The translations under genes were made by a program, and so were the position numbers. Source: Pseudomonas fluorescens (GTDB lineage Bacteria > Pseudomonadota > Gammaproteobacteria > Pseudomonadales > Pseudomonadaceae). Taken from it: 64,000 nucleotides of DNA. The notes beneath the pieces were generated by a model. That model saw only the letters and a list, made by a program, of their open reading frames with translations. It did not search any database and was not told the origin of the DNA. The DNA lies in assembly GCF_000730425.1 (NCBI RefSeq), contig NZ_CP008896.1, positions 744,001 through 808,000 on the forward strand, in the 5' to 3' direction. Below, piece after piece: positions 27,297 to 47,355 of this stretch. Numbering within the stretch: the stretch's first letter is position 1; every line of letters starts with the position of its first letter.

Positions 27297-28658
27297 ATGG
27301 CCGGAAACATCAAAAAACAGGTCGATAGTATCGACTACAGCACCGTCGCGGTTCCGGAAGAACACCGCATGAGCAAAGGCTCACTGACGATGGCTTGGTG
27401 GGCCATCTGCAGTGCTATGTTTTGGCTGGTGGTGTCCGCCACCCTGGCAATGAGCTTTGGTACGATGAATGCCATAATCGGCTTACTCTTGTCGGTCGTA
27501 ACTTATGCGGCCATCAACGGGGTCATTGCCCGCTACGCCATTAAGACCGGATTATCGGTCGCACTCTTCTCCCGGGTGCTATTCGGACGCGCCGGCGCAG
27601 CACTGGCCACCCTGATTTTCTTCGCCACGGCGATCTACTACAGCGTGTTTGAAGGCTCGGTGATCGCCATTGCTATCCAACACTACGTGTCCGACATCAC
27701 GCTCAATCAAGCCTACCTAATAGTGGTGCTATACAGCGTGCCACTGGTGTTCGGTAGCGTGCAGACCTGGCTGGATAAGTTCAATGGCGTGCTGCTGCCG
27801 CTCTACCTGATTGGTCTGATTGCCGTAGTAGCGATGGCCGTCGGTGAATACGGCTACAGTTCTGCCTGGTTGGAAATGGGGCCTGAGAGCGGGCCAGTAA
27901 GTAATGGCTGGTGGGACTGTTTCACCTATTTCATGGGAGTGTGGATTCTCATGATGTACACCTGGGACTACGCACGCTTCGGTCGTAAGCAGGACGCCAG
28001 CTACCACGCTAAATTTAACTTCGGCCTACCATTCTATATCTTCACCTTTCTTATTAACGGTCTGGTCGGCATCTTTCTCGCCGCCACCATTCCCGCAGAG
28101 GGCGGCCTGTCTGAGGTCTCGGTGGTGCTGGCCATTGTCGAGCTGATGGGTATCTGGGGGTTGTTGTTCGTTTGGGTCAGCCAGACCCGTATCAATACCG
28201 CAAATTTCTTCATGGCCGCTAGCAACATGCATGCGTTCTTCGGCCGTTTTGGCTTGGCGGCTGTGCCTTATATGGCATGGGCCGTAGTAGTTGGCATCGT
28301 GGTCTACACAATGATGTTGCTCAATGTGTTCAGCTACATTCTGCAAGCCCTGGCATACCAGAGCATCTTTGTAGTGGCTTGGGTAGCGATCGCTTTGGCG
28401 CATATTTTCTCGCCGAAATATACCCAGCTGTTCGAGGGCAATATTGAATTCGCTCTCGAACGAGTCAACGCCTTCAACCCGTGCGGCTTGATCGCCTGGT
28501 TCTTTGCCGCTGGCCTGGGGATAGTGCTGCTGAATTTCGGCGGAGCAACGCTGGCGACCTTCTCAGCGCCGGTGACCTTTGTCTGCGCGTTCGCCAGCTA
28601 CTGGCTGCTACTCAACAGCGCCAAACGCAGCTGGTTTGTCCGCACCAGCTGCAGCTGA
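27297..28658 (+). CDS. NCS1-family permease (cytosine/purine/hydantoin type)
   Basis: A 453-residue inner-membrane transporter of the NCS1 family with about 12 transmembrane helices. Typical parts are EEHRMSKGSLTMAWWAICSA, GTMNAIIGLLLSVVTYAAIN, GLSVALFSRVLFGRAGAALA and WDYARFGRKQDASYHAKFNF. NCS1 proteins carry nucleobases, hydantoins, allantoin and other small N-heterocycles by H+ or Na+ symport. Placed upstream of a porin and an OplBA-type lactamase, it probably imports the lactam. The substrate is inferred from context. Confidence 0.88.
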   Translation: MAGNIKKQVDSIDYSTVAVPEEHRMSKGSLTMAWWAICSAMFWLVVSATLAMSFGTMNAIIGLLLSVVTYAAINGVIARYAIKTGLSVALFSRVLFGRAGAALATLIFFATAIYYSVFEGSVIAIAIQHYVSDITLNQAYLIVVLYSVPLVFGSVQTWLDKFNGVLLPLYLIGLIAVVAMAVGEYGYSSAWLEMGPESGPVSNGWWDCFTYFMGVWILMMYTWDYARFGRKQDASYHAKFNFGLPFYIFTFLINGLVGIFLAATIPAEGGLSEVSVVLAIVELMGIWGLLFVWVSQTRINTANFFMAASNMHAFFGRFGLAAVPYMAWAVVVGIVVYTMMLLNVFSYILQALAYQSIFVVAWVAIALAHIFSPKYTQLFEGNIEFALERVNAFNPCGLIAWFFAAGLGIVLLNFGGATLATFSAPVTFVCAFASYWLLLNSAKRSWFVRTSCS

Positions 28659-28805
28659 AACCAATATCGGCGCCCACCGGGCCGATGTATTCGGCTCCGG
28701 CAACTTGCTGCAGCTACCAAACCCGATCCAAAACTAAGCCGCAACACCGCAGCGGCTTAGTGCTGCGTAGCTGAAAAAAAGACTAACAATGCTAAGAGCC
28801 AATTC

Positions 28806-29984
28806 ATGAAAATGATCAACCTGCACCCACAAGCAACTCTCATATTACTTCCATTGTTGGCATCGCTCGCGCTACCCGCAGGTGCGGTGGCTATCAATGA
28901 CAACTTGGACATTGGCGGCGCCGTGCGTGCGCGTATCGACTACGACCCCGACCGGGATATCGAGAAGCTGAGTTTCGATACTGCCTTTCTCACCGCTACC
29001 TACAACTCCGATAGTTGGATCGGCGCGGCTAAATACCGTTTCTATGGCGACGCTTACCCTTTCGACTATACCGACAAGATCGGTGACATCGCCTTCGCCG
29101 AATATGCATGGATCGGCTACAAGTTCGATGAGTCGCGTCAGATTCAGGTGGGACTAAACAAGATTCCGTTCGGCCTGCTGCCCTATGCCGGCAGCACTTT
29201 CTTCTTGACCTTGGGCAGCGTGATCGGCCTGGAAGACATTGCGAACCTTGGTGTTAAATACATCCAGCAGCAGGATGACTGGAACTTCCAACTCGCTTAC
29301 TACCTAAGCCCGGCTGATCAGGGTCAAGGTACAAGCCGCGGCGGGCGGACCTATGCAACCAGTGTTGCTACGGCAGATGACTACGTCGTCGACGGCAGCG
29401 ATAACCACGAGCGCGACATCTTAGTCGGGCGTCTGGCCCGCAACCTAAAGCTTGGGAGCTGGCAGTCGGAGATCGGCGCCTCGGCATTGACCTCGACGCT
29501 GCAGAACCAGGACAGTCGTGATAGCGGCCGCCGAAATGCCCTAGCAGTCCACTACTCGGGCAAGAATGGCCCCTGGGGCGTGCAACTGCAAGCCACTCGC
29601 CAGGACATGAGCCCGGAGAATCCCGGCAGAGACAAGCTGGTTAGCTTCGGCAGCTTCGACGGCACCTTTAACGTTGCCGCCAAGGGTAACCTCTATGTAG
29701 CCGACCTCAGCTATGACATTCCTGGCTCACTCGGGTGGCTCTCTGGTGTCAAGGTTTACGGTAACTACAGCCTGTTCGACAAGGATGAGTCCAGCTTCGA
29801 GGATTCCCAGCGCTTCATCCTTGGCACATCTTTCTCGCTGAAAGACCTATGGATCGCCGTCGAGTGGTTGCACGGCAAGCACGATCCCTACATCGGTGGC
29901 GGTAGCTACACCCAGAGCCTGGGCGCCGGCGGTAGCGAACGCTGGGAAAACCAGTTGTATACCAATATCGGTTACTACTTCTGA
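28806..29984 (+). CDS. Outer-membrane porin
   Basis: A 392-residue beta-barrel porin. A signal peptide with a hydrophobic core (ILLPLLASLALPAGAVA, cleavage after about residue 28) is followed by alternating beta-strand pattern with many Tyr/Trp, e.g. AEYAWIGYKFDESRQIQVGL and NIGYYF with the terminal Phe needed for outer-membrane assembly. It resembles the phosphate-selective porin-like/OprB-like families that have only moderate similarity to one another. It follows the permease gene and most likely supplies the periplasm with the same small solute. A strong terminator follows. Confidence 0.83.
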   Translation: MKMINLHPQATLILLPLLASLALPAGAVAINDNLDIGGAVRARIDYDPDRDIEKLSFDTAFLTATYNSDSWIGAAKYRFYGDAYPFDYTDKIGDIAFAEYAWIGYKFDESRQIQVGLNKIPFGLLPYAGSTFFLTLGSVIGLEDIANLGVKYIQQQDDWNFQLAYYLSPADQGQGTSRGGRTYATSVATADDYVVDGSDNHERDILVGRLARNLKLGSWQSEIGASALTSTLQNQDSRDSGRRNALAVHYSGKNGPWGVQLQATRQDMSPENPGRDKLVSFGSFDGTFNVAAKGNLYVADLSYDIPGSLGWLSGVKVYGNYSLFDKDESSFEDSQRFILGTSFSLKDLWIAVEWLHGKHDPYIGGGSYTQSLGAGGSERWENQLYTNIGYYF

Positions 29985-30024
29985 GGCAATAAGCGCCCCT
30001 AGCAACCACTCACGCTCCTATTTT

Positions 30025-30050
30025 CGCCAGCCATGTGCTGGCGTTTTTTT
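30025..30050 (+). terminator. Rho-independent terminator of the permease-porin operon
   Basis: Perfect 7-bp stem CGCCAGC/GCTGGCG with loop CATGT and seven T. Three bases after the T-run a group II intron begins. Confidence 0.9.
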
Positions 30051-30053
30051 ATG

Positions 30054-31976
30054 GTGCGCCAGGCATGGCGCGTAGCGCCGTGACTGGCGCTGTCGGGTTC
30101 ACTGTGGTGGTGAGCCTGGCGACTTGGAGGTGAAAGTCCTCTACACACCCGGCAAGGGGAAGTGTTAGCTGAAGGCAAGGGTGTCGCGGGCGACTGCGAA
30201 TCTGAAGGAAGCCCGAGACAAAATGCTGGCCTGACGAACAGGAAGCGGATGAGGCGGCGCAGCGGGGTGAGGTGGCCATAATCGCCAAAGCCCGATACTT
30301 GCACGGAACGCTGCGACGTAGATCCGACAGGCATAAGCAGGAAGGTCGCGCGAATTACCCTGGGAGATCTGTACGCTTGCCATTGTGCTACCGATTGTCG
30401 AGAGGCGACGGGATGGGCGTGCAGAAGTCAGCCGAGGCCGTAGTAAGTGGCGGTCAACCACGCCATCAAGGGCCGAACAGGTCATGCCGCCAGTAGGCGT
30501 CAGCGTCTCGTCGATAACCGAAATGCAGAAATTTCTCCAAGAGAAGACTGTCACCCCGAGTCCCGGCCAGAGGCCGAGGATGACGCCTGACAGCGCAGAG
30601 GTATCGGCGGCGTCGGTGACGTGGATGAACGCGGAGCCGGACACGCTGATGGAGCGGGTGCTTGCGCCGCTCAATCTCAAGCGTGCGTATCAGCGCGTGG
30701 TCAGCAACAAGGGGGCGCCGGGTGCCGATGGCATGACGGTCGCCGACTTGGCAGGCTACGTGAAACAGTATTGGCCCATCCTGAAGGTCAGGCTGCTGGC
30801 AGGTGAATACCATCCCCAGGCAGTGCGGGCGGTCGAAATTCCCAAACCGCAGGGCGGTATGCGGCAACTGGGCATTCCCAGTGTCGTGGATCGCCTGATC
30901 CAGCAAGCCCTGCTGCAACAGCTCACGCCGATCTTCGATCCGCTGTTCTCGGACTATAGCTACGGCTTCCGTCCGGGCAGAAGCGCTCACCAGGCTGTCG
31001 AGATGGCCCGCACCCATGTGGCGGCGGGTCATAGGTGTTGCGTGGAACTCGATCTGGAGAAGTTCTTTGATCGGGTCAACCACGACATCCTGATGTTCTG
31101 TGTTGAGCGCCATGTCGAAGACAAACAGGTGCTCAGACTCATCCGCCGTTACCTCGAAGCGGGCGTCATGTCGGGCGGGGTTGTCAGCCATCGGCAGGAG
31201 GGGGCGCCGCAAGGCGGCCCGCTTTCGCCGCTGCTGTCGAACATCCTGCTCGATGAACTCGACCGTGAGTTGGAGCGGCGAGGCCATCGCTTCGTGCGCT
31301 ATGCCGATGACGCGAACATTTATGTCCGTAGTCCGCGTGCTGGCGAACGAGTGCTGGCCAGTGTCGAGCGGTTCCTGAATCACCGTCTGAAACTGAGACT
31401 GAATCGGGACAAGAGTCGCGTGGCTGGGTCGTGGAAATGCGACTACCTGGGGTATGGGATGAGTTGGCACTCGCAGCCTAGACTGCGAGTGGCAACCATG
31501 AGCCTGCGCCGTGTGCGCGACCGTCTCAGGGAACTGCTGCGAGGGGTGCGGGGCCACAAGATGGCGAATGTCATCGAGCGGGTAAACCCGGTGCTGCGAG
31601 GCTGGGCAGGCTACTTCAAGCTCAGCCAGAGCAAGCGTCCACTGGAAGAGCTGGATGGCTGGGTCAGGCACAAACTTCGCTGTGTCATCTGGCGGCAATG
31701 GAAGCAGCCCTCTACGAGGGCGCGCAACCTGATGCGCCTGGGATTGAGCGAGGAGCGTGCCTGCAAGTCGGCCTTCAATGGCCGAGGCCCGTGGTGGAAC
31801 TCAGGAGCGCCGCATATGAATCAGGCGCTGCCGAAGAAGCTATGGGACAGACTTTGACTGGTCTCGATACTGGATACGATCAATCGGCTTAACCGCATGG
31901 CCTGAACCGCCGTGTACGGAACCGTACGCACGGTGGTGTGGGAGGACGGCGGCCGTGAGGCCGCCTCCTACCCGAT
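30054..31976 (+). mobile_element. Group II intron, bacterial class C type, with maturase gene
   Basis: The 5' end is GTGCGCC, the group II consensus GTGYG. The 3' end shows domain V/VI-like structure: GTACGGAACCGTAC stem near 31915-31928, then the long stem GGCGGCC-GTGA-GGCCGCC at 31948-31964, and the usual ending CCTACCCGAT at 31967-31976. The intron lies directly behind a terminator hairpin and T-run, the known target preference of class C introns. The internal ORF is intact, so splicing and mobility are plausible. It does not interrupt a coding gene, but separates the porin from the lactamase genes. Confidence 0.87.
30484..31857 (+). CDS. ltrA: Group II intron reverse transcriptase/maturase
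   Basis: A 457-residue intron-encoded protein. The RT domain runs from LNLKRAYQRVVSNKGAPGAD to FVRYADDANIYVRS, with the YADD catalytic motif and QEGAPQGGPLSPLLSN as RT block 4. The maturase domain X follows (RLRELLRGVRGHKMANVIER, NPVLRGWAGYFKLSQSKRPL). There is no C-terminal HNH endonuclease, as usual in class C introns. The start is uncertain: ATG 30484, 30523 or 30580 are all in frame. It helps the intron fold, splice and retrotranspose. Confidence 0.92.
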   Translation: MPPVGVSVSSITEMQKFLQEKTVTPSPGQRPRMTPDSAEVSAASVTWMNAEPDTLMERVLAPLNLKRAYQRVVSNKGAPGADGMTVADLAGYVKQYWPILKVRLLAGEYHPQAVRAVEIPKPQGGMRQLGIPSVVDRLIQQALLQQLTPIFDPLFSDYSYGFRPGRSAHQAVEMARTHVAAGHRCCVELDLEKFFDRVNHDILMFCVERHVEDKQVLRLIRRYLEAGVMSGGVVSHRQEGAPQGGPLSPLLSNILLDELDRELERRGHRFVRYADDANIYVRSPRAGERVLASVERFLNHRLKLRLNRDKSRVAGSWKCDYLGYGMSWHSQPRLRVATMSLRRVRDRLRELLRGVRGHKMANVIERVNPVLRGWAGYFKLSQSKRPLEELDGWVRHKLRCVIWRQWKQPSTRARNLMRLGLSEERACKSAFNGRGPWWNSGAPHMNQALPKKLWDRL

Positions 31977-32157
31977 CGCAGCGTTCCGGCCTCCCGGCAT
32001 TAGATCTTGAGTAGATGCACCAGTAGAAACAGTTCACTTCAGGCCAAAAAACGGTGCGCTTGAAGACAAGCCAGCCGCTAGGCCCGCGCGTAGCTTAGCG
32101 ATGTGGGCAAGACATCCGTCACGCCTCCCCAGACAAAAACAAGATTTGTGGTGACCC

Positions 32158-33903
32158 ATGAACATAGTAGACCCGATCACCCTGGCAGTCGTGCGCGGTG
32201 CGCTCGAAACAGCCCAGCGAGAAATGACCCTGACGCTGGAAAAGACCAGTCGCTCGAGCGTGTTCAACCTCGCCCACGACTATTCCAACGCACTCTTCGA
32301 TCACCTCCCGGAAATGATCCTGCAAGGCCAGGACCTTCCTATTCATCTCGGTTCGCTTATCCCAGCGATGAAATGCGTTGCTGGCTTCTTCGGTGATGAG
32401 ATTGCCGAGGGCGATGTTATTTATCATAACGATCCAGCCTACATGGGCAGTCATATCCTCGACTGCTGCATGTACAAACCGGTGTTCTATAAGGGCGAGC
32501 TGGTGTTCTGGACGGTCTGCAAGGGCCACCTGACCGATATTGGCGGCCCGGTACCGGCCGGCTACAACCCGGACGCAAAAGAAATCTACGCAGAGGGCCT
32601 GCGCATCCCGCCTGTCAAGTTGTGGGCCCAGGGCCAGCGCCGGGAAGACGTAATCAACCTGCTGCTGACCAACATGCGCGCCCGCGCCTATCAAGAAGGC
32701 GATCTGAATGCCCAGTACGGTGCTTGCAGCGTGGGCGAGCGTCACCTGATCGAGTTGCTCGATCGCTATGGCGTCGACCAGGTCCGAGCGTGCATTACCG
32801 AGCTGAAAGATATGGCAGACCGTCATATGCGCGCATTGTTGCGTGATGTGCCAGACGGTTTCTACAGCGGCACTGCCATTCTCGAAGACTCCGGTCATGG
32901 TCTGGGAGAATTGTCGATCACTGCCCAGGTGGAAATTCGCGGCGACGAGGCGCACGTTCTGATAGAGAGCCCGCCGCAGGTGCCTTACTTCATCAACTCC
33001 TACGCGGGCAATTCGATCTCCGGGGTTTACCTCGGACTGATGATGTTCGCCCAGGTGCCACCGCCCTACAATGAAGGCCTCTATCGCTGCGTGAGTGTAG
33101 ACCTTGGCCCGTCCGGTACTCTGTGCAACGCCCAGGAGCCGGCACCGCACGTCAACTGCACCACTACTCCGATGGAAACCCTCGCCGATGCCGTGCGTCT
33201 GGCCCTTGAACAGGCGGCTCCGGAGCGTGTGACCGCCTCCTGGGGGCATGCCAGCGGGATCAATATCGCTGGGCACGACCCACGCAACAACAACGATGAA
33301 TATGTGACCATGGTGCTGGCCTCGGTCATCTCCGGCGCTGGCGCTAACAAGGCTATGGATGGTTGGCCTGCTTGCGGCCCGCTGTGCTGCTTCGGCGCGC
33401 TGACGTCCGGCGATATCGAACTGCTTGAGTACTCCTATCCGGTACTGATACACCGCTACAGCCTGATGACCGACAGTGGTGGCGCCGGTGAATTCCGCGG
33501 TGGCTCTGGTACTCGCCTGGAGCTCGAGCCGCTGAAGCACGCCATGACCGTGGTCGGTTTCGGTGAGGGCCGGCAGCTGCCTACCGCCGGTGCGGCAGGG
33601 GCGAAGAATGTTCTGCTCGAGCCCAAGCTCGGCCGCTTGATCCATAGACATGTCGACGGTGAGGAAGACCATTACATCCAGAACACTCTGCTGACCGCAC
33701 AACCAGGTGAGCGCGTAATCAACGTCAACCCGGGCGGTGGTGGCTATGGCGACCCACTACGTCGTCCGCTGGCCACGGTTCTAGCCGATGTGCGCAACGG
33801 CTTGGTCTCGATTGACGGCGCGCGCCTTGAATACGGCGTAGTGATTGACGGCAACGGCCAACTCGATGAAGCCGCAACCCACGCACACCGAGCCGCGCAC
33901 TGA
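32158..33903 (+). CDS. oplB: Lactamase/hydantoinase B subunit (OplB/CapB-type)
   Basis: A 581-residue HyuB/oxoprolinase-B protein. Family segments are DPITLAVVRGALETAQREMT at the start, FNLAHDYSNALFDHLPEMIL, DPAYMGSHILDCCMYKPVF, TDIGGPVPAGYNPDAKEIY, GVYLGLMMFAQVPPPYNEGL, DSGGAGEFRGGSGTRLELEP and the closing VNPGGGGYGDP. Such B subunits work with an HyuA/OplA partner in ATP-dependent ring opening of lactams, hydantoins or 5-oxoproline. With the AraC gene next door, the closest known systems are OplBA of P. putida and caprolactamase CapAB of P. jessenii. Substrate preference is inferred. Confidence 0.88.
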   Translation: MNIVDPITLAVVRGALETAQREMTLTLEKTSRSSVFNLAHDYSNALFDHLPEMILQGQDLPIHLGSLIPAMKCVAGFFGDEIAEGDVIYHNDPAYMGSHILDCCMYKPVFYKGELVFWTVCKGHLTDIGGPVPAGYNPDAKEIYAEGLRIPPVKLWAQGQRREDVINLLLTNMRARAYQEGDLNAQYGACSVGERHLIELLDRYGVDQVRACITELKDMADRHMRALLRDVPDGFYSGTAILEDSGHGLGELSITAQVEIRGDEAHVLIESPPQVPYFINSYAGNSISGVYLGLMMFAQVPPPYNEGLYRCVSVDLGPSGTLCNAQEPAPHVNCTTTPMETLADAVRLALEQAAPERVTASWGHASGINIAGHDPRNNNDEYVTMVLASVISGAGANKAMDGWPACGPLCCFGALTSGDIELLEYSYPVLIHRYSLMTDSGGAGEFRGGSGTRLELEPLKHAMTVVGFGEGRQLPTAGAAGAKNVLLEPKLGRLIHRHVDGEEDHYIQNTLLTAQPGERVINVNPGGGGYGDPLRRPLATVLADVRNGLVSIDGARLEYGVVIDGNGQLDEAATHAHRAAH

Positions 33904-33938: not shown

Positions 33939-36029
33939 ATGAGCAAACAACAATATCGCCTGGGCATCGATGCCGGCGGCACCTTCACTGATTTCATCCT
34001 CGCCGACCATCAGGGCAACGTGCAGTTGTTCAAGGCGCCGTCCACCCCACATGACGGCACCCTGGCCATACGCAACGGTCTGGCGCAAATCGCCGATGCC
34101 CTCGGCCGTACACCAGCCGAGATCATTGCCGACTGCGATCTGTGCATCAACGGGACGACTGTGGCGCTCAACGCACTGATCGAAAAGACCGGGGTCAAGG
34201 TGGGCCTGCTGTGTACCGATGGCCATGAAGACAGCCTGGAAATTCGCCTTGGCCACAAAGAAGATGGCCATCGCTATGACGCCACTTATCCACCGGCGCA
34301 TATGTTAGTGCCGCGCCACCTGCGCCGTCCAATCGGCGGGCGTATTATCAGTGACGGCAGCGAGTTCAGCCCGCTAGACGAGGCGGCGATTCATGCCGCC
34401 ATCGACTACTTCCGCGAACAACAGGTGCAGGCGGTGGCGATCTCCTTCGTCTGGTCGGTGCGCAACCCTAGTCACGAGCAGCGCGCTATGGCTATGGTGC
34501 GTGCGGCTTTACCTGACGTATTTGTCTGCAGCGGCCACGAGGTGTTCCCGCAGATTCGCGAATACACACGCACCTCGACAACCGTGGTCAACGCCTACCT
34601 TAGCCCAGTGATGGGTCGTTATATCGAACGCATCGACGCGCTGTTCGAGGAGCTGGGCGCGCAGCAGCCTACCCGCTATTTCCAGTCCAACGGAGGTCTG
34701 GCTCCTGGCGTGGTAATGCGTGAGCGGGCGGTCAACGCGATCAACTCCGGTCCGGCATCTGCCCCGCAAGCCGGCTTGTGCGTGGCCCAGCCATTCGGTA
34801 TCGACAACGTAATCACCGTCGATATGGGTGGTACCTCGTTCGACATCACTCTTAGCAAAGGCGGTCGCACCAACTTCAGCAAAGACAGCGACTTCCTCCG
34901 TTACCGTATCGGCGTGCCAATGATTCAGGTGGAATCCCTTGGCGCCGGCGGTGGCTCGATCGCCCACCTTGACGACTTCGGCATGCTCCAGGTCGGTCCA
35001 CGCAGTGCCGGGGCTAACCCCGGGCCTGTGTGTTATGGAAAGGGTGGGGTCGAGCCGACTGTAACCGATGCTAACCTGGCGCTCGGTTATCTGGCTGATG
35101 GTGCACTGCTCGGTGGCAGCATCCGTCTAAATCGACAAGCCGCGATCGATGCGATCCGCAGTAAAATTGCCGAACCGCTGGGTATCAGTGTCGAGCGCGC
35201 GGCCGTCGGTATCATTACCCTGGTTAACCTGAGCATGGTTAGTGGTATCCGCCGCGTGTCCATTGAGCGTGGTTATGATCCCCGTGACTTCGCCCTGATC
35301 GGTGCCGGTGGTGCAGCGGGCATGCACGTGATGCGACTAGCTGAGGAAATCGGCAGCAAGGTTGTGCTGATTCCCAAGGTGGCTTCGGGGCTGTGCGCCT
35401 TCGGCCAGATTCTCTCTGACATCCGCTATGATCAGCTGACTACTTTGCCGATGCGTTTGGATGACGAGTTCGTCGATTTGGAGCAACTAAACCAGGCCCT
35501 GCAGCAGTTACGCGAGCGTGGTATGACGAACCTGCGAGACGATGGTTTCGGTGGTGACAATCGTATTGAATGCCAGTACAGCCTGGAGATTCGTTACCTC
35601 GGACAGATCCACGAGTGCAGCGTCGAACTGAGCTGCGACCGGCTCGACCGTAGCAGCCTGGCGGCCCTGCGCGAATCCTTCCACCAGCGGCACAAGGCGC
35701 TGTTTTCCTTCAGTGAGCCTAACAGCCCGGTCGAACTAGTTAATCTAGAGTGCTCGGTGATCGCGCGGTTACAGCGTCCACCAATGCCTGAACTTGCAAC
35801 CCCGCTCAAGGCAACGGCCGCGATTCCGGCTGGTCATCGTCCGATGCTGTTCAATGCGCAAGACGATTGGCAGGACACGCCTGTGTACAACGGCGACCGC
35901 ATAGAAGTAGGGCAGATTATTCAAGGTCCCTGTGTGATTGAGGAAGCGACCACAAACATCGTTGTTCCACCGGGCTGGCGGGTCAGTCTGGATCCCTCGG
36001 CCACATATGAACTGACTCCCGGTCATTGA
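33939..36029 (+). CDS. oplA: ATP-dependent lactamase/hydantoinase A subunit (OplA/CapA-type)
   Basis: A 696-residue HyuA/oxoprolinase-A subunit with actin-like ATP-binding fold. The first phosphate loop is RLGIDAGGTFTDFILADHQG; others are CINGTTVALNALIEKTG, VDMGGTSFDITLSKGG and ESLGAGGGSIAHLD, with GPRSAGANPGPVCYGKGG and IGAGGAAGMHVMRLAEEIG. It would phosphorylate the amide so that subunit B can finish hydrolysis. ATG 33939 is chosen over an in-frame TTG at 33915. The gap to oplB is 35 bp, one operon. An AraC regulator follows, as in the OplR systems. Confidence 0.88.
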   Translation: MSKQQYRLGIDAGGTFTDFILADHQGNVQLFKAPSTPHDGTLAIRNGLAQIADALGRTPAEIIADCDLCINGTTVALNALIEKTGVKVGLLCTDGHEDSLEIRLGHKEDGHRYDATYPPAHMLVPRHLRRPIGGRIISDGSEFSPLDEAAIHAAIDYFREQQVQAVAISFVWSVRNPSHEQRAMAMVRAALPDVFVCSGHEVFPQIREYTRTSTTVVNAYLSPVMGRYIERIDALFEELGAQQPTRYFQSNGGLAPGVVMRERAVNAINSGPASAPQAGLCVAQPFGIDNVITVDMGGTSFDITLSKGGRTNFSKDSDFLRYRIGVPMIQVESLGAGGGSIAHLDDFGMLQVGPRSAGANPGPVCYGKGGVEPTVTDANLALGYLADGALLGGSIRLNRQAAIDAIRSKIAEPLGISVERAAVGIITLVNLSMVSGIRRVSIERGYDPRDFALIGAGGAAGMHVMRLAEEIGSKVVLIPKVASGLCAFGQILSDIRYDQLTTLPMRLDDEFVDLEQLNQALQQLRERGMTNLRDDGFGGDNRIECQYSLEIRYLGQIHECSVELSCDRLDRSSLAALRESFHQRHKALFSFSEPNSPVELVNLECSVIARLQRPPMPELATPLKATAAIPAGHRPMLFNAQDDWQDTPVYNGDRIEVGQIIQGPCVIEEATTNIVVPPGWRVSLDPSATYELTPGH

Positions 36030-36126: not shown

Positions 36127-37086
36127 ATGACAGATCAATTGTCTACGCGGTATTGGCCTGAGGGAGAAAGGCAATCGCGTTGGGCCGAAGCCATCGGCAA
36201 TACATATTTTCCATTGTCGTTGGAGTTCAATTCCAGCGCCATTTTCCAAGGCAGCCTGAAAATTTGGAAAACGGGCAGTACGCCGTTGGCGTTATCGCGC
36301 CTGCGCTCCAGTCAGCTAGGCTATTCGCGCAGCGAGAGCCAGGTTAGCGAAGATACTGAACCCTGTTACCTTGTAACAGTGCCGCGCCTTACCGAAGTAC
36401 ACTTCGAGCAAGACGGTCGTGAGCTCCATTGTAAGCCAGGTGGGTTCATCTTCGAGCGAGGCGATGCGCCTTATCGTTTTCACTACTCCTGCGACAACGA
36501 CCTTTGGGTATTCAAGCTGCCTGAGCGCGCGCTACATGGACAGATACGTGGAGCCGAGCGCTACACCCGTTTCTGTTTCGAGGCTCGGCGTGGATTGGGA
36601 CGAATTTTTGTTGATCAACTGGCGATGTGTGCCGCGCGCTTCGACGAATGCGATGCGGATGCCCGTCATATGCTGCTGGAACAGGTGCTTTCGACGTTGT
36701 TAATGGCTCTGCGCCAAGATGAGCGCGTCCTTAATAGTGAGAGTTCGAGTCTAGCTGCCCTGCATTTGCAGCGTATCGAGCACTACATCGACCGAAACTT
36801 GTGTTCAGCTGAACTAAACCCGCAGCATATTGCTCAGGCCTGCGGCTTATCGGTTCGCTATTTGCATAAATTATTTTTCAGTACGCCCTACAGTCTCGGT
36901 GAATGGATTCGCCTGAAACGATTGGAGGCTGTATATCAACGCCTACGTGATCCCCACTGCCACCTATCAATCGGTGAGCTGGCATATCGTTGGGGGTTCA
37001 GTGATCAGGCACAATTTTCCCGGCATTTTCGCCAGCACTTTAGTTGTACTGCCAGTGAAGCCCGAGCCGTTTCGTTAAAGCCGTAG
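36127..37086 (+). CDS. AraC-family activator, OplR-like
   Basis: A 319-residue AraC/XylS-type regulator. The N-terminal cupin-like effector part (residues about 20-180, with LSLEFNSSAIFQGSLKIWKT and YLVTVPRLTEVHFEQDGREL) belongs to the AraC_binding_2/FeaR-like group. The C-terminal double HTH spans about 215-315: HIAQACGLSVRYLHKLFF, then IGELAYRWGFSDQAQFSRHF. Its place right after the lactamase genes matches the lactam-responsive AraC regulator OplR described for P. putida, so it probably activates oplBA and perhaps the permease operon. That role is inferred. Confidence 0.88.
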   Translation: MTDQLSTRYWPEGERQSRWAEAIGNTYFPLSLEFNSSAIFQGSLKIWKTGSTPLALSRLRSSQLGYSRSESQVSEDTEPCYLVTVPRLTEVHFEQDGRELHCKPGGFIFERGDAPYRFHYSCDNDLWVFKLPERALHGQIRGAERYTRFCFEARRGLGRIFVDQLAMCAARFDECDADARHMLLEQVLSTLLMALRQDERVLNSESSSLAALHLQRIEHYIDRNLCSAELNPQHIAQACGLSVRYLHKLFFSTPYSLGEWIRLKRLEAVYQRLRDPHCHLSIGELAYRWGFSDQAQFSRHFRQHFSCTASEARAVSLKP

Positions 37087-37463: not shown

Positions 37464-38183
37464 CTATCCCATGATTTCAGGGGCGGACTGGGATGCTCTC
37501 AGGTTGCTGTTGCGCATGATCCCTTCGATGATCGGTACTGGTGTCATCAGATGAGCCTGCATCATGGCGCTTGCTCGCGTTGCGTCACGGGCAAGGATAG
37601 CTTCTACCAGTTCGCTGTGCTCTTGACGTTTCAGGGACAAGGCCTCCTCGGATAGCACCGTGCGCCGCAGCCACAGCTGGCGATAGCGCTCGGCCTGATC
37701 GAACAGATAGGCGCGCGCCTGCAGCAGGTGTCTAGACCCACAGCCGGAGGCTATAGCTGTATGGAAGGCCTTGTGTCGGGCATCCCATATTTCCAGCATC
37801 TGCTCCTGGGTCTTGACCTCCATTACCTTGGCCAATGTATGCGAATAGGCCAACACCTGGGCCTCCCAGGCGTCATCGCCGCGTTCGATGGCGAGCTTAA
37901 GTACCAGCGCTTCGAGATTGGCCCGTGCGTCATAGATGTCCTGCATTTCGCTCAGCGACATAGGAGCGACGCGGTAGCCACGCTGACTGATAGCTACTAC
38001 CAGATTTTCCGCAATCAGATGCGATAGCGCTTCACGCAGAGGGCCTACGCCTAGGTCGTAGCGCTCCTTAAGCGCAGTCATTCGCAGTTTTTCTCCGGGC
38101 TTGAACATGCCCTGAATTATGTCCCGCTTGAGCCACTCATAGCCGCTGACTGCTGAGTTTTGGCGGGGGGCGAGCGTATCCAT
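37464..38183 (-). CDS. csiR: GntR/FCD-family regulator, CsiR-type
   Basis: A 239-residue GntR regulator. The winged helix (residues about 10-75) has WLKRDIIQGMFKPGEKLRMT and GVGPLREALSHLIAENLVVA; the FCD effector domain (about 85-220) has DARANLEALVLKLAIERGDD and HKAFHTAIASGCGSRHLLQA, with His residues that often bind a metal. It is divergent from csiD, as in the known csiR-csiD-lhgO arrangement where CsiR represses glutarate catabolism and glutarate relieves it. Two TTTTATAAAA boxes lie between the genes. Confidence 0.9.
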   Translation of the reverse strand: MDTLAPRQNSAVSGYEWLKRDIIQGMFKPGEKLRMTALKERYDLGVGPLREALSHLIAENLVVAISQRGYRVAPMSLSEMQDIYDARANLEALVLKLAIERGDDAWEAQVLAYSHTLAKVMEVKTQEQMLEIWDARHKAFHTAIASGCGSRHLLQARAYLFDQAERYRQLWLRRTVLSEEALSLKRQEHSELVEAILARDATRASAMMQAHLMTPVPIIEGIMRNSNLRASQSAPEIMG

Positions 38184-38269: not shown

Positions 38270-38299
38270 TTTTATAAAAGCGTAGACATTTTTATAAAA
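38270..38299. promoter_or_regulatory. CsiR operator candidate: two TTTTATAAAA palindromes
   Basis: TTTTATAAAA occurs at 38270-38279 and 38290-38299, start-to-start 20 bp or about two helical turns, so dimers would bind on the same DNA face. The pair lies 77 bp before csiD and 87 bp before csiR, in a position to control both. Confidence 0.72.
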
Positions 38300-38375
38300 T
38301 AGCTATATTTTTAGTCCGGCTGTTCTGGTAAATCTCGGGGCGGCGTACAGACAATTTTTTCGTCAGGACTCTGCC

Positions 38376-39353
38376 ATGAATGCCTTTACCCAGCTCAAAG
38401 ATCTTGTGATGCCGCTACCGACCGCCGTTAAGGGGTTTTCTCTTTCACCCTCCGCTCAGTCGCCCCGTTTGTTCGAGCTGACCTTCACTAAGGCGACGAT
38501 AGAGGCTTTCTGTGTAGCAGTGGCCGAGTGGCCGGTGCAGGCGCTGGAATACAAGTCCTTCTTGCGATTTCGCTTCGCCAAAATTCTTGACGATCTCTGC
38601 GGTAACAGCCTGCGCCCGGTGCTACTCAACGCCCTAATGGATCGTGCCACCGGAGGGCTGTTAATCAAGCAGGAGGCCCTGAATGATGTGGCACAAGCTG
38701 ATGATATGGTCAAATTCTCGACTGCTGTGGCCCACCTGCTGGGGCGGTCGAACTTTGATGCGATGAGCGGCCAGTTCTACGCACGCTTCGTGGTCGAGAA
38801 CGTCGATAATTCGGACAGCTACCTGCGCCAACCTCACCGGGTAATGGAGTTGCACAACGATGGTACTTTCGTCGATCAGATCACCGACTACGTGCTGATG
38901 ATGAAGATCGATGAGCAGAATATCGAAGGTGGCAACTCGCTGATCCTGCATCTGGACGACTGGGAGGATCGCCATGCTTTCTTCCATCATCCGCTAGCAC
39001 GGCGCGTCATGCGCTGGACCGCGCCGCCGAGTAAAAGGGTCGATACGGACGTGTTCCATTCGATCTTTGATGTCGACGCCGAAGGGCGGCCGACTATTCG
39101 CTATATCGATCAATTTGTTCAGCCCAAAGACTTCGACGAGGGCAACTGGCTGACCGACCTGTCTATCTCCCTGGAGGGCAGTAAACAGAAGCTTTCCGTG
39201 CCGGTGCCAGTTGGCTGCTTCCTGCTGATTAATAACCTGTATTGGCTGCATGGCCGCGATCGTTTCACCCCTCACCCTGGGCTGCGCCGTGAACTGATGC
39301 GCCAGCGCGGTTACTTCAGTTACCCCAAACTCGGCCATCAGCAAGGCCAATAA
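38376..39353 (+). CDS. csiD: Glutarate 2-hydroxylase CsiD (GlaH)
   Basis: A 325-residue Fe(II)/2-oxoglutarate-dependent dioxygenase that turns glutarate into L-2-hydroxyglutarate while 2-oxoglutarate becomes succinate. The iron ligands are His160 and Asp162 (MELHNDGTF) and His292 (YWLHGRDRF); Arg near 304-309 ([12 protein letters not shown]) binds 2-oxoglutarate. Family segments [20 protein letters not shown] and [20 protein letters not shown] are present. Length matches CsiD. First gene of the csiD-lhgO operon; cytoplasmic tetramer in known homologues. Confidence 0.95.
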
Positions 39354-39437
39354 TTGCCATTAATTGAACAGGGGCTGCGCGGTTTAGCCCTTGTCGTTTG
39401 TCCACGGGGCAAAACAGATCGAGTAGAGGTGATAGCG

Positions 39438-40667
39438 GTGTACGATTTTGTGATCATCGGGGGCGGCATTATCGGCATGTCGACTGCCATGCAATTAATC
39501 AAGGCCTACCCAGAGTCGAAAATCTTGTTGCTCGAGAAAGAGTCCGGGCCAGCTAAGCATCAGACGGGGCACAATAGCGGGGTCATCCACGCCGGCGTCT
39601 ACTACACGCCGGGTAGCTTGAAGGCGAAGTTCTGCCTGGAAGGCAACCGTGCTACCAAATCGTTCTGTAACGAGCACGGCATTATCTACGATGAGTGCGG
39701 TAAGTTGCTGGTCGCCACCAATGAGGTGGAAATGCAGCGCATGCGCGCGCTTTGGGAGCGCACTGCAGCCAATGGTCTGGAGCGCGAGTGGCTGTCTGCG
39801 GAGCAACTGAAGGAACGCGAACCGAACATCACCGGAATCGGCGGGATCTTCGTGCCCTCCAGTGGTATCGTTAACTATGCCGAGGTCACCGCTGCCATGG
39901 CTCGCGAGTTCCAGAGGCACGGTGGCGAGATTCGCTACGACAGCGAAGTCATCGGCCTGGAAGAGCGCGCCACGGAGATGCGGGTTAAAACCCAGCATGA
40001 AGAAGTCATTGCACGCTTTTTGGTGACCTGCTCGGGTCTGATGGCCGACCGCATTGTATGTCTACTGGGCTTAGATCCTGGCTTTAGCATTTGCCCGTTC
40101 CGTGGCGAATACTATTTGCTGCCTGAGCAGCACAACCGGATCGTCAATCACCTGATCTACCCGATTCCCGATCCCTCCATGCCGTTCCTCGGCGTGCACC
40201 TGACGCGAATGATCGACGGCAGTGTGACAGTCGGTCCCAATGCTGTGCTGGCACTCAAGCGTGAGGGCTATCGCAAGCGTGACATATCTTTGTCCGACAC
40301 GTTCGCAATGCTCACCAATCCGGGCATTCTTAAAGTGCTCAAGGACAATCTGCGGCCCGGCCTGATCGAGATGAAAAACTCGCTGTTCAAGCGTGGTTAT
40401 CTACAGCAAGTACGCAAGTACTGCCCCAGCTTAACGCTGCAGGATCTCAAGCCTTACCCGGCCGGCGTCCGCGCCCAAGCGGTTTCAGCGGACGGCAAGT
40501 TGATCGAGGACTTCCTGTTCCGCAATACCCGCCGTAGCGTCAACGTCTGCAATGCACCATCGCCGGCGGCTACCTCTGCAATTCCCATAGGCGCCTACAT
40601 CATCAAGCAGATTGATGCACAGCTGCAGGGGCTACCCAGGTTTGTAAAAAACCAACATCCCGCATGA
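39438..40667 (+). CDS. lhgO: L-2-hydroxyglutarate dehydrogenase/oxidase
   Basis: A 409-residue FAD enzyme of the DAO family. It oxidises L-2-hydroxyglutarate to 2-oxoglutarate and passes electrons to the membrane quinone pool. Seen are the FAD motif YDFVIIGGGIIGMSTAMQL, the family-typical HQTGHNSGVIHAGVYYTPGS, and FRGEYYLLPEQHNRIVNHLI with YPIPDP. The GTG at 39438 starts MYDFVIIGG with GAGG 8 nt upstream and gives the normal length; the frame open to 39354 adds an unconserved 28 residues. 84 bp after csiD. Confidence 0.93.
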   Translation: MYDFVIIGGGIIGMSTAMQLIKAYPESKILLLEKESGPAKHQTGHNSGVIHAGVYYTPGSLKAKFCLEGNRATKSFCNEHGIIYDECGKLLVATNEVEMQRMRALWERTAANGLEREWLSAEQLKEREPNITGIGGIFVPSSGIVNYAEVTAAMAREFQRHGGEIRYDSEVIGLEERATEMRVKTQHEEVIARFLVTCSGLMADRIVCLLGLDPGFSICPFRGEYYLLPEQHNRIVNHLIYPIPDPSMPFLGVHLTRMIDGSVTVGPNAVLALKREGYRKRDISLSDTFAMLTNPGILKVLKDNLRPGLIEMKNSLFKRGYLQQVRKYCPSLTLQDLKPYPAGVRAQAVSADGKLIEDFLFRNTRRSVNVCNAPSPAATSAIPIGAYIIKQIDAQLQGLPRFVKNQHPA

Positions 40668-40905
40668 GGCAGTGCGGGGCGAATTCGGCAGTGCACTGGA
40701 ACGAACAAGACTGTGCGCAAGACGACAAGCCCCGCACCGGCTCAGTCTAATAGGCTATCGGCTAGTGCACTTAACGTCCCCGAGCCAAGTCATCGTTACT
40801 GAACTCGTTACCGAATTGAAGTGTGTGATTGTGATCAAAAGCCGGATGCCTACTTATAAGGCTACTCCCAGAAACCATGCTTGTTAGTCATATTGAGAGC
40901 GCCCC

Positions 40906-42273
40906 ATGAACCAGTCAGTATCCTCGCTGCCAGAAAAAGACATTCAGTATCAACTGCACCCCTACACCAATGCTCGCCTTCATCAGGAGCTTGGCCCGCT
41001 GATCATCGAGCGCGGGGAGGGTATCTATGTTTATGACGATCAGGGCAAGGGTTATATCGAGGCGATGGCTGGGTTGTGGAGCGCCGCGCTTGGCTTTAGC
41101 AATCAACGTCTGATCAAGGCAGCTGAGCAGCAATTCAACACCCTGCCGTTTTATCACCTGTTCAGTCACAAATCGCATCGCCCGAGTATCGAGTTAGCCG
41201 AAAAGCTGATCGAGATGGCGCCGGTGCCTATGAGTAAGGTGTTCTTCACCAACTCCGGTTCCGAGGCTAACGATACTGTAGTGAAGATGGTCTGGTACCT
41301 CAATAACGCTCTAGGCAAACCAGCCAAGAAGAAGTTCATCAGTCGGGTCAACGGCTACCACGGCATCACCGTCGCCAGCGCAAGCTTGACTGGCCTTCCA
41401 GGCAACCAGCGCGGTTTCGACCTGCCGCTTCCAGGCTTCCTGCATGTCGGCTGCCCGCACCATTATCGTTTCGCCCTTGCCGGTGAAAGTGAAGAGCATT
41501 TCGCTGACCGCCTTGCCGTCGAGCTCGAGCAGAAGATTCTCGCCGAAGGCCCGGAGACTATCGCAGCGTTCATTGGCGAGCCATTGATGGGCGCTGGCGG
41601 TGTCATAGTGCCGCCTCGTACCTACTGGGAGAAGATCCAGAAAGTTTGCCGTAAGTACGACATCCTGGTTATCGCCGATGAGGTAATCTGTGGATTTGGG
41701 CGTACCGGGCAGATGTTTGGCAGCCAGACCTTTGGTATCCAGCCGGACATCATGGTGTTATCCAAGCAACTGTCATCTTCTTATCAGCCGATAGCGGCGA
41801 TTCTGATCAATGCCCCAGTATTTGAGGGCATCGCTGATCAGAGCCAAGCGCTTGGCGCGCTTGGGCATGGGTTCACCGGCAGCGGTCATCCGGTAGCTAC
41901 TGCCGTGGCCTTGGAGAACCTGAAGATTATTGAAGAGGAGAGCCTGGTCGAGCATGCGGCGCAAATGGGCCAGTTGTTGCGCAGCGGCCTACAGCATTTC
42001 ATCGATCATCCCTTGGTGGGCGAAATTCGCGGTTGTGGACTGATCGCTGCGGTAGAACTAGTTGGCGATCGCGTGAGCAAGGCGCCGTATCAGGCGCTAG
42101 GCACCCTCGGACGCTACATGGCCGGCAGAGCCCAGGAACACGGCATGATTACTCGCGCCATGGGTGATGCCGTGGCCTTCTGCCCGCCGTTAATCGTCAA
42201 CGAACAGGAAGTCGGAATGATTGTAGAGCGCTTTGCCAGGGCGCTGGACGACACCACTCAGTGGGTTGGTTAG
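40906..42273 (+). CDS. Omega-amino acid aminotransferase (class III, PLP)
   Basis: A 455-residue class III aminotransferase of the omega-transaminase group. The PLP Lys287 is in LSKQLSSSYQP, Asp258 in VIADEVICGFGRTG, and the phosphate-binding loop is FTNSGSEANDTVVKMVWY. It is not the short DavT/GabT type; it resembles omega-aminotransferases such as the P. jessenii 6-aminohexanoate transaminase. Here it would turn 5-aminovalerate or 6-aminohexanoate into the semialdehyde. An own promoter is possible in the 238-bp gap before it. The exact substrate is inferred. Confidence 0.9.
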   Translation: MNQSVSSLPEKDIQYQLHPYTNARLHQELGPLIIERGEGIYVYDDQGKGYIEAMAGLWSAALGFSNQRLIKAAEQQFNTLPFYHLFSHKSHRPSIELAEKLIEMAPVPMSKVFFTNSGSEANDTVVKMVWYLNNALGKPAKKKFISRVNGYHGITVASASLTGLPGNQRGFDLPLPGFLHVGCPHHYRFALAGESEEHFADRLAVELEQKILAEGPETIAAFIGEPLMGAGGVIVPPRTYWEKIQKVCRKYDILVIADEVICGFGRTGQMFGSQTFGIQPDIMVLSKQLSSSYQPIAAILINAPVFEGIADQSQALGALGHGFTGSGHPVATAVALENLKIIEEESLVEHAAQMGQLLRSGLQHFIDHPLVGEIRGCGLIAAVELVGDRVSKAPYQALGTLGRYMAGRAQEHGMITRAMGDAVAFCPPLIVNEQEVGMIVERFARALDDTTQWVG

Positions 42274-42382
42274 ATCAATCCGGGGGAGGAGAGAATTGCT
42301 TTTATGTGGCTCTCCTCGGCTTAAATTCATAGCTTGGAAAATAGCTGAGCAGCACTGAATGCAGTCTGCGAAGGAGCACGCC

Positions 42383-43834
42383 ATGCAACTCAAAGATACC
42401 CAATTGTTCCGCCAACAGGCTTATATCGACGGAACCTGGTTGGACGCGGACAGCGGCCAGACCATTCAGGTCACCAATCCGGCCACCAACGAAGTTATGG
42501 GTAGTGTGCCGAAGATGGGGGCAGCGGAAACCCGTCGAGCCATCGAAGCAGCAGATCATGCCCTGCCAGCCTGGCGTGCACTGACAGCTAAAGACCGCGC
42601 CAACAAACTGCGCCGCTGGTTTGAACTGATGATTGAAAACCAGGACGACCTGGGTCGTCTCATGACCATGGAGCAAGGTAAGCCACTTGCCGAAGCCAAG
42701 GGCGAAATTGCTTTCGCGGCGTCCTTCCTTGAGTGGTTCGCCGAAGAAGCCAAGCGCGTGTATGGCGACGTAATTCCCGGCCACCAACCGGACAAACGCC
42801 TGATCGTGATCAAACAGCCCATCGGCGTAACGGCAGCGATTACACCCTGGAACTTCCCGGCAGCCATGATCACCCGTAAAGCCGGCCCGGCCCTGGCCGC
42901 CGGTTGTACCATGGTGCTCAAGCCAGCGTCGCAAACGCCTTATTCGGCGCTGGCGTTGGCAGTGCTGGCCGAGCGTGCCGGGATCCCCAAAGGCGTGTTC
43001 AGTGTAATCACTGGCAGTGCTGGCGAAGTCGGCAGCGAACTGACTAGCAACCCGATCGTGCGCAAGTTGAGCTTTACTGGCTCCACCGAAATTGGTCGCC
43101 AGCTAATGGCCGAATGTGCCAAGGACATTAAAAAGGTGTCGCTAGAACTGGGCGGAAACGCGCCGTTCATCGTATTCGATGATGCCGACCTTGATAAGGC
43201 AGTGGAAGGCGCACTGATCTCCAAATACCGCAACAATGGCCAGACCTGCGTGTGCGCCAACCGCCTGTATATCCAAGACGGCGTATACGATGCCTTCGCC
43301 GAGAAGCTGAAAATCGCGGTAGCTAAGTTGCAGATTGGTAACGGTTTGGACGAAGGTATCACCACCGGCCCTCTGATCGATGCCAAGGCGGTGGCCAAGG
43401 TCCAGGAGCACATTGCCGACGCCATTAGCAAGGGTGCCAAGCTACTCGCTGGTGGTAAGCCGCACGCCCTCGGTGGCACTTTCTTCGAGCCGAGCATCCT
43501 CATTGACGTACCGAATAACGCCGCCGTAGCCAAGGAAGAAACCTTCGGTCCGCTGGCGCCGCTGTTCCGTTTTAAGGACGAGGCCGACGTGATCGCGATG
43601 TCCAATGACACCGAGTTCGGCCTGGCCTCGTACTTCTATGCCCGCGATATGGGGCGCGTGTTCCGTGTGGCCGAAGCCCTAGAATACGGTATGGTCGGCG
43701 TCAATACTGGGCTGATCTCCAATGAAGTTGCGCCTTTCGGTGGTATCAAGGCATCCGGCCTGGGTCGCGAAGGATCCAAGTACGGCATTGAGGATTACCT
43801 GGAGATCAAGTACCTCTGCCTGGGTGGTATCTAA
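42383..43834 (+). CDS. davD: Glutarate/succinate semialdehyde dehydrogenase (DavD/GabD)
   Basis: A 483-residue NAD(P)-dependent aldehyde dehydrogenase. The catalytic Cys289 is in NNGQTCVCANR and Glu255 in SLELGGNAPF, with PWNFPAAMITRKAGPALAAG and FTGSTEIGRQLM. It is nearly the same length as, and by memory very close to, P. putida DavD, which oxidises glutarate semialdehyde; C6 semialdehyde is also possible. AAGGAG lies 7 nt before ATG 42383. Last gene of the lactam/glutarate block; a terminator-like hairpin lies 250 bp on. Confidence 0.93.
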   Translation: MQLKDTQLFRQQAYIDGTWLDADSGQTIQVTNPATNEVMGSVPKMGAAETRRAIEAADHALPAWRALTAKDRANKLRRWFELMIENQDDLGRLMTMEQGKPLAEAKGEIAFAASFLEWFAEEAKRVYGDVIPGHQPDKRLIVIKQPIGVTAAITPWNFPAAMITRKAGPALAAGCTMVLKPASQTPYSALALAVLAERAGIPKGVFSVITGSAGEVGSELTSNPIVRKLSFTGSTEIGRQLMAECAKDIKKVSLELGGNAPFIVFDDADLDKAVEGALISKYRNNGQTCVCANRLYIQDGVYDAFAEKLKIAVAKLQIGNGLDEGITTGPLIDAKAVAKVQEHIADAISKGAKLLAGGKPHALGGTFFEPSILIDVPNNAAVAKEETFGPLAPLFRFKDEADVIAMSNDTEFGLASYFYARDMGRVFRVAEALEYGMVGVNTGLISNEVAPFGGIKASGLGREGSKYGIEDYLEIKYLCLGGI

Positions 43835-47338: not shown

Positions 47339-47355
47339 CGCCGGGGAGACTGACG

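Follow-up and report, generated by a model that had tools for sequence, protein, structure and literature searches.

How does a nearly identical pathway for the use of a synthetic chemical come to be present in different species of Pseudomonas? The question is raised by a stretch of 64,000 nucleotides from Pseudomonas fluorescens (NCBI RefSeq assembly GCF_000730425.1, contig NZ_CP008896.1, positions 744,001 to 808,000 of the forward strand), referred to below as the window and numbered from its first letter, which carries genes for the breakdown of caprolactam, a building block of nylon-6. A first-pass annotation, made from the letters and their open reading frames (ORFs), had described a lactam catabolic block and regarded it as a transferable island. 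The island is borne out, and its vehicle, unseen by that annotation, is a transposon with defined ends; we hold with considerable confidence that a caprolactam pathway of the Pseudomonas jessenii type is carried here as cargo of a Tn7-like transposon that inserts beside the chromosomal dif site.

The genes of the block, from a permease to an aldehyde dehydrogenase, were recovered where they had been called (27297–43834). Its centre is formed by capB/oplB (caprolactamase beta subunit; 32158–33903, + strand; model NF050157) and capA/oplA (alpha subunit; from an ATG at 33939 to 36029, +; NF050156), whose products exceed the NCBI caprolactamase equivalog cut-offs (1000 bits) with 1148.5 bits for CapB and 1188 bits for CapA, and differ from their PDB relatives at 3 of 581 residues (6yra_B) and 3 of 696 residues (6yra_A), respectively. 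The 6-aminohexanoate (omega-) aminotransferase, PjAT (40906–42273, +), is identical to PDB 6g4b at 455 of 455 residues. We take 6yra to be the P. jessenii caprolactamase and 6g4b to be P. jessenii PjAT, the PDB listing itself giving family names only. The first-pass annotation had proposed this comparison and had allowed for a ring-opening enzyme that groups with 5-oxoprolinases or hydantoinases; no such grouping is found, because CapA and CapB are more than 99% identical to the crystallised caprolactamase. The host genome contains one hydantoinase-B-family gene.

Between capA and the aminotransferase gene lie an AraC-family regulator gene (36127–37086, +; Pfam), which we take from its position beside capA to be OplR-like, the repressor gene csiR (37464–38183, −; NF008576, 380.9 bits, cut-off 218), csiD/glaH for glutarate 2-hydroxylase (38376–39353, +; above the cut-off of its equivalog model), which is the sole csiD of the host genome, and lhgO for L-2-hydroxyglutarate oxidase (39354–40667, +; NF008726, 604 bits, cut-off 299). 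The last gene (42359–43834, +) does encode a dehydrogenase, but the label DavD given to it earlier has to be corrected, its score being that of the GabD/succinate-semialdehyde dehydrogenase equivalog NF008415; as DavD and GabD presumably form one family, it is described here as a GabD/DavD-family semialdehyde dehydrogenase, putatively acting on 6-oxohexanoate. Elsewhere in the host a second GabD-type gene, 89% identical to it, has an aminotransferase gene about 250 bp away.

The lactam block as such was published in 2018 for P. jessenii GO3 and is not new. Otzen 2018 (PMC6061476) lists ORF4265–4271 as dehydrogenase, aminotransferase, LhgO, CsiD, CsiR, CapA and CapB, and ORF4277–4282 as CoA-transferase, thiolase, hydroxyacyl-CoA dehydrogenase, hydratase, IclR regulator and acyl-CoA dehydrogenase, draws csiR-csiD-lhgO between capBA and the aminotransferase gene, and reports near-identical genes in P. 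mosselii. The earlier view that oplBA and csiD-lhgO are known only as separate loci is wrong, because that paper drew them as one cluster; what stands of the proposed module is that ring opening, transamination, aldehyde oxidation, csiD-lhgO and local regulators occur in one block, while the novelty attached to their joining does not. As far as the paper's description goes, the gene order of the window is that of GO3, with adipate genes on the same contig in both, and the five ORFs 4272–4276 equal in number etfB, etfA, a permease, a porin and an intron reverse transcriptase here; the sections of PMC6061476 that describe the cluster mention neither a transposon or intron nor an NCS1 permease, porin or AraC gene. 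The more distant OplBA and OplR system of P. putida KT2440 includes CapAB homologues that are 80–86% identical (PMC8453981; also PMC11879879). Loci labelled P. putida resemble the window in having an AraC gene after capA, but L033, L036 and L078 have no csiD, PjAT-like aminotransferase (≥60%) or adipate genes in the flanks examined.

Judged from its sequence, the block is cargo of a tniABQ Tn7-like transposon, most of which lies in the window (1–61475) and whose left end lies outside it. Its limits are given by the extent of DNA shared with other genomes, by inverted TGTGAyGCC termini and by a 5-bp target site duplication, ACTGA, on both sides, the right copy of which occupies 61476–61480. The left end is at G000:C1:736708 of the host genome, 7.3 kb before the window, and the right end at window position 61475 (G000:C1:805475), giving a length of 68,768 bp that includes an IS66-family insert and is ~66 kb without it. 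The first bases are TGTGATGCC and the last GGCGTCACA, and 16 of the first 20 bases match the right end inverted.

Three further copies support these limits. In a first comparison, loci from a metagenome-assembled genome (MAG) labelled ALOHA (L002), P. marincola (L003) and P. chengduensis 402 (L004) were 99.96–99.99% identical to the window. The whole element is matched at 99.985–100% in P. chengduensis (G400) and at 99.97–100% in the MAG (G398), where window 52332–59803 is not on the contigs compared; in P. marincola (G041) the match, made up of pieces of 99.8–100%, lacks roughly the first 0.3 kb. Flanks differ among the carriers, the left end being seen in the host, G398 and G400 and the right end in all four. 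Inverted TGT...ACA ends with a 5-bp duplication form complete pairs in three of them: ACTGA/ACTGA in the host, GCGTA/GCGTA in G398 (on two contigs) and ATGCT/ATGCT in G400; in P. marincola the right side alone is seen, with GCTGA. Essentially identical capA/capBA occurs, in a sample of 398 genomes of the genus, in the host and G041, and, in a sample of 398 genomes of the family, in the host and G621, which belongs to another genus and by its coordinates is the MAG of L002.

Where does the element insert? Beyond its right end stands TTAACATAATATACATTATGCG, the reverse complement of the 22-base core of chromosomal dif (61518–61539, +), which is the sole match in the 6.06 Mb genome at ≤2 mismatches (the dif sequence of PAO1 is printed in PMC2731167). 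In the four carriers the right end is 42, 42, 41 and 33 bp from the core, a position from which the element would appear to insert tens of base pairs from dif. At ≤2 mismatches the core was found once each in 56 of 57 genomes searched (44/44 and 12/13), and not in G271.

This position is shared by a wider family. Related TniA proteins gave 62 matches in 55 of 398 genus genomes; dif lies downstream within 200 kb in 25 of these, upstream within 200 kb in 1 and more than 1 Mb away in 9. All nine far matches score ≤242.5 bits, and among same-contig matches of ≥245 bits dif is downstream within 200 kb in 22 of 23. A family test covered 24 genomes, the host among them, in which a single contig bears both TniA and dif; an end pair had to show TG...CA ends, an exact 5-bp duplication, agreement at 13 or more of 20 end bases and a right end ≤150 bp from dif. 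Such a pair was found 28–127 bp from dif in 17 of the 24 genomes, compared with 0 of 552 mismatched left-right pairings, and in all 17 elements tniA is at the left end, opposite dif. On the other side of dif, with the whole flank searched, weak matches (13 and 14 of 20 bases) occur in 2 of the 24. Depending on the genome, the element lies on the XerD side or on the XerC side of dif. The genome G162, where 183 kb separate TniA from dif on the same contig, was left out of the test, and 13 additional TniA genomes speak neither for nor against, dif being found in 12 of them and always on a contig other than that of TniA. Second TniA matches in G084 (C76) and G269 (C19) are likewise each on a contig other than that of dif.

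The closest relative of the element is a ~48 kb element at dif in G063 (L144/L189), with 69% identity in TniA and the duplication TGAGA. The host has a second tniA homologue (33%; G000:C1:4759765–4761198), which probably belongs to another type of transposon because it is distant in sequence and ~4 Mb from dif.

The transposition genes are located at the left end. TniA has a Mu-transpos_C domain (PF09299) above cut-off and an rve match (PF00665) at 27.2 bits, below the cut-off of 32.6; TniB has an AAA+ domain (PF05621) above cut-off; and TniQ is tentatively assigned from its position, its size and a match to PF06527, with no PDB relative found by sequence. Neither tnsA nor a serine recombinase or TniR resolvase was seen among the ORFs scanned, which are part of all ORFs. 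At the right end lie two genes of Xer-like tyrosine recombinases, that of XerL (58499–59803, −), in which R, HxxR and Y, which we take to be the catalytic motifs of tyrosine recombinases, are present, and that of a degenerate paralogue (60069–61256, −), which lacks the first R and HxxR, has no Pfam hit and is a candidate target selector; its relatives in G063 and G372 have kept the arginine and lost HxxR. In the proposed mechanism, TniA, TniB and TniQ would transpose the element and leave the 5-bp duplication that is seen in three hosts, the target would probably be chosen by TniQ together with the right-end Xer-like proteins, through recognition of dif or of dif bound by Xer, and cointegrates may be resolved by XerL, since no tnsA was seen. 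A survey of the last ~8 kb beside dif in the remaining 16 elements that have an end pair gave a strong Xer-like relative in 9 (G287, G372, G022, G181, G206, G276, G299, G240 and G063).

Several observations weigh against this account or limit its reach. Of the 62 TniA matches, 26 are on a contig other than that of dif and cannot be placed, and in one genome dif was not found. Seven of the 24 genomes of the family test gave no end pair (G218, G201, G277, G281, G343, G099 and G311), and in G277 TniA points away from dif. The TniQ match (24.5 bits, E 4.5e-5) is below its cut-off of 27. In the right-end survey the Xer-like relative is weak in 3 of 16 elements (G292, G249 and G048) and was not found in 4 of 16 (G350, G395, G011 and G050); the Xer-like proteins can therefore not be a universal selector, and these four elements need another answer to target choice. 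Both right-end copies of G063 have broken catalytic motifs, which counts against XerL as the resolvase there, and an active XerL is accordingly not general. On the side of the cargo, gene order and the number of ORFs agree with collinearity with GO3, as judged from the paper's description, but collinearity of every gene is not proven, since the sections describing the cluster include no AraC gene between capA and csiR in their count. Finally, csiR, csiD and lhgO are drawn in that paper (Fig. 4, blue) as not significantly upregulated on caprolactam (PMC6061476).

What, then, does the cargo degrade? The functional block reaches upstream to 17758 through an adipate β-oxidation cluster (17758–26650) that is absent from the earlier gene list. 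It comprises genes for an acyl-CoA dehydrogenase, putatively acting on adipyl-CoA (17758–18912, −; counterpart of GO3 ORF4282), an IclR/PcaR-type regulator (18974–19840, −; ORF4281), an enoyl-CoA hydratase (20071–20862, +; ORF4280), a 3-hydroxyacyl-CoA dehydrogenase (20866–22407, +; ORF4279), a 3-oxoadipyl-CoA thiolase (22417–23619, +; ORF4278; equivalog NF006001, 739.7 bits, cut-off 622), a CaiB-type CoA-transferase for putative adipate activation (23646–24884, +; ORF4277), and EtfB (24941–25705) and EtfA (25706–26650; both +, 24941–26650), the putative electron acceptor of the acyl-CoA dehydrogenase. CapBA would open the lactam using ATP, as reported for the GO3 enzyme, from which it differs at 6 of 1277 residues, and PjAT would transaminate 6-aminohexanoate, as described for the identical enzyme. 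The GabD-family dehydrogenase, for whose GO3 counterpart 6-oxohexanoate was proposed as substrate (PMC6061476), would then make adipate, which the upstream cluster may convert by CoA transfer and β-oxidation to acetyl-CoA and succinyl-CoA. That this route from caprolactam through adipate is the main exit follows, as an inference, from the near-identity to caprolactam enzymes, the attached adipate cluster and the induction pattern in GO3, where caprolactam induces 4 of the 6 adipate-cluster ORFs and whose caprolactamase is inactive on 5-oxoproline (PMC6061476).

The first-pass annotation had instead read the block as a C5 route, from valerolactam through 5-aminovalerate, glutarate and L-2-hydroxyglutarate to 2-oxoglutarate, with CsiD and LhgO at its centre. 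Lactamase-linked csiD and lhgO are indeed present, but as the main route this is doubtful and appears clearly the less probable of the two, given enzymes nearly identical to characterised caprolactam enzymes, the adipate cluster upstream and the csiR, csiD and lhgO genes that caprolactam leaves without significant upregulation in the GO3 drawing. It draws its support from the fact that the CsiD of the block is the genome's only one, and from other loci. A survey of CapA covered the best 80 of 89 loci, in which some flanks end at contig ends, making the counts lower bounds. csiD lies within ~10 kb of capA in at least 18 of the 80 loci (16 of 59 among those with ≥20 kb of sequence) and is accompanied by lhgO in the 18. 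On the CapA tree (quick method, midpoint root; 79 of the 80 loci and the window, the short CapA of L071 being dropped) these loci fall into separate parts, and their gene orders differ, which suggests a functional link. In addition, the close loci L005–L007 have the same capBA-csiD-lhgO-aminotransferase-dehydrogenase order, and no adipate-gene matches were found in the 5.2 kb upstream of their permease gene. Alongside the caprolactam route as the main exit, csiR-csiD-lhgO is therefore plausibly a side branch, a second exit that would take C5 lactams from glutarate by way of L-2-hydroxyglutarate to 2-oxoglutarate, and this exit is probably real because csiD recurs across the CapA tree in differing orders.

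The same comparisons point to how the two gene sets met. The CoA-transferase is present at 100% identity in the four transposon carriers alone, and 14 other genomes with lactam loci reach ≤58% (19 genome entries were searched, with P. marincola entered twice and L012 left out); a second CoA-transferase elsewhere in the host genome is 78% identical. Because these copies are confined, among the genomes searched, to the carriers and L005–L007 show no adipate genes in the 5.2 kb upstream of the permease gene, we infer that an older lactam locus and the adipate cluster were brought together by the mobile element.

Uptake would be served by the genes at the start of the block. The gene of the permease (27297–28658, +) was confirmed but its NCS1 label was not, the match being weak (21 bits to TIGR00800 with a cut-off of 353, and no Pfam match). 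As an NCS1-like candidate lactam importer it is nevertheless the best uptake candidate, because 42 of the 80 loci have a relative of it no more than 6 kb from capA; relatives of the outer-membrane porin (28806–29984, +; Porin_O_P-like, Pfam) lie within the same distance in 21 of 80, and relatives of the AraC regulator lie within 3 kb in 74 of 80. For GO3, ABC (ATP-binding cassette) transporters have been proposed for uptake (PMC6061476). After the lactam genes, at 44853–48270, the window has a urea/branched-chain-type ABC ATP-binding protein and a chemotaxis-receptor-like ORF, which may possibly take part in lactam sensing or uptake.

Two other explanations of the vehicle have to be weighed against a transposon that selects dif. 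The first, that the island is an integrative conjugative element or moves through its tyrosine recombinases, by Xer-type integration at dif, with the tni genes as passengers, is very improbable. Xer-using mobile elements at dif are known from the literature, dif adjoins the element, and besides the Xer-like gene at the right end there are two Phage_integrase-type genes at 6.2–8.5 kb: a tyrosine recombinase gene (6263–7381, −; Pfam), whose product scores far below the cut-offs of the NCBIfam XerC/D models and may be cargo or a resolvase, and a second recombinase gene (7499–8488, +; Pfam), with relatives in some related elements (tblastn). Integration by Xer would, however, recombine within dif, whereas the right end lies 33–42 bp outside the core in four hosts; the TGT...ACA inverted repeat ends, both 5-bp duplications in three hosts and tniA at the left end of all 17 elements with an end pair also speak against it, and no conjugation genes were seen among the ORFs scanned. 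The second, that the terminus, near which accessory DNA is often found, merely tolerates insertions and collects tni transposons without target choice, is fainter still: nine TniA matches more than 1 Mb from dif do indicate that distant tni transposons insert elsewhere too, but right ends 28–127 bp from dif in 17 of 24 genomes, always opposite tniA, with none of the 552 mismatched pairs doing so, are positions too tight to be given by a tolerant region of many kilobases.

Carriage by a plasmid and a tRNA-targeted island were tried as well and rejected. The 912 CapA records of a plasmid collection are each <60% identical (best listed, 57.8%), and no plasmid covering 80% of the block was found, the best 20 listed of 314 matching records each covering the intron interval; no tRNA was found in the window or in eight flank loci.

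Among known transposons, Tn5053 leaves 5-bp duplications, as the element does here. The Tn5053/Tn402 'res site hunters' also share tniA, tniB and the inverted-end architecture, and have a tniQ, for which the element here has a candidate, and no tnsA, which was not seen among the ORFs scanned here either (PMC11406308, PMC8649781); they differ in that their targets are plasmid res sites, whereas here it is chromosomal dif in 4 of 4 carriers, and in that the present element has ~66 kb with catabolic cargo and no serine resolvase among the scanned ORFs. The nearest among the literature matches listed are the 'dif site hunters' of Acinetobacter, of the IS1202 family (ISAjo2 type; PMC10132070), which have a TnsB-like transposase, TGT/ACA ends, 5-bp duplications and insertion beside dif; these are, however, single-gene elements of 1.5 kb, without TniB or TniQ, that insert 5 bp from the XerC site, compared with 68.8 kb, tniABQ and 28–127 bp from dif on either side here. 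For the degenerate Xer-like protein the parallel is TnsF, an inactivated tyrosine recombinase that selects the target of Tn6022 (Faure 2023, PMC10293859). Both are derived from tyrosine recombinases and lack catalytic residues, and a TnsF-like role as target selector is plausible for the protein encoded at 60069–61256, a XerL homologue, because TnsF has this role in Tn6022. Tn6022 differs in that it targets comM, has tnsA and encodes TnsF beside TniQ; the protein described here is encoded at the end opposite tniQ, has a paralogue with intact motifs, and has neither the N-terminal zinc fingers nor the operon with tniQ that mark TnsF.

The transposon has itself received insertions. A group II intron with a reverse transcriptase/maturase lies between the porin gene and capB (30054–31971, +; Rfam, Pfam and empty site, with ends set by eye and good to a few bases); it has its reverse transcriptase at 30385–31857 and Rfam matches at 30184, 30389 and 31905, and was absent from the earlier list. 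It stands directly behind the hairpin of an intrinsic terminator that follows the porin gene (30025–30050, +; fold −12.5 kcal/mol, z −3.5). L005–L007 have the block in common with the window and an empty intron site, where 1 to 3 bases separate the end of the DNA match at 30048–30050 from its resumption at 31977. The intron moves independently of the transposon, since its region (30043–31977) is 99.5% identical to one on a Pseudomonas aeruginosa plasmid record, H1 (NZ_ON248939), that has no lactam block. The IS66-family insertion (right part at 1–1312, +; ~2.4 kb in all, starting ~1.07 kb before the window; transposase 71–1282, TnpB before the window) is absent from the three other copies. In P. 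marincola about 1.1 kb of extra DNA near window 60944 (G041:C27, L128), flanked by 3 repeated bases, is probably an insertion sequence, and at ~27510 of G041:C22 the element stops in the porin gene at unrelated DNA, by rearrangement or assembly error; a second G041 contig resumes at the porin break with a 95-base overlap.

Other cargo includes a salicylate 1-monooxygenase gene (54999–56300, +; TIGR03219, 759 bits, cut-off 446) and an aromatic-acid transporter gene of the major facilitator superfamily (56374–57720, +; TIGR00895, 391 bits, below the cut-off of 419), which with nearby LysR genes form a second catabolic module of the transposon. Nine proteins tried with PADLOC gave no hit for anti-phage defence.

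Both the vehicle and its family look new. Among the open-access literature matches listed, a scope outside which subscription papers mostly and supplements wholly lie, there is neither a Tn7-like family at dif nor a transposon that carries caprolactam genes, and the word dif is absent from the text examined of two Tn7 surveys (PMC10293859, PMC8649781) and a review (PMC11406308). With less assurance than for the element itself, we lean towards a Pseudomonas lineage of large Tn7-like transposons that would home to dif through TniQ and Xer-like proteins, one active and one degenerate and TnsF-like, leaving dif intact and loaded with cargo of tens of kilobases. In one such transposon a C5 lactam locus would have been fused to an adipate cluster, giving a mobile pathway for the nylon-6 monomer whose spread across species would be recent. 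Separate loci that were joined give way to a defined mobile unit whose ends are known, and the transposon offers an explanation for a near-identical pathway for a synthetic chemical in different Pseudomonas species. Because dif is a single-copy, conserved landing site that is left intact by the insertion, Tn7-like machinery that finds it would choose its target in a new way and might serve as a tool to insert large DNA site-specifically, and where mobile catabolic genes land becomes a directly testable question.

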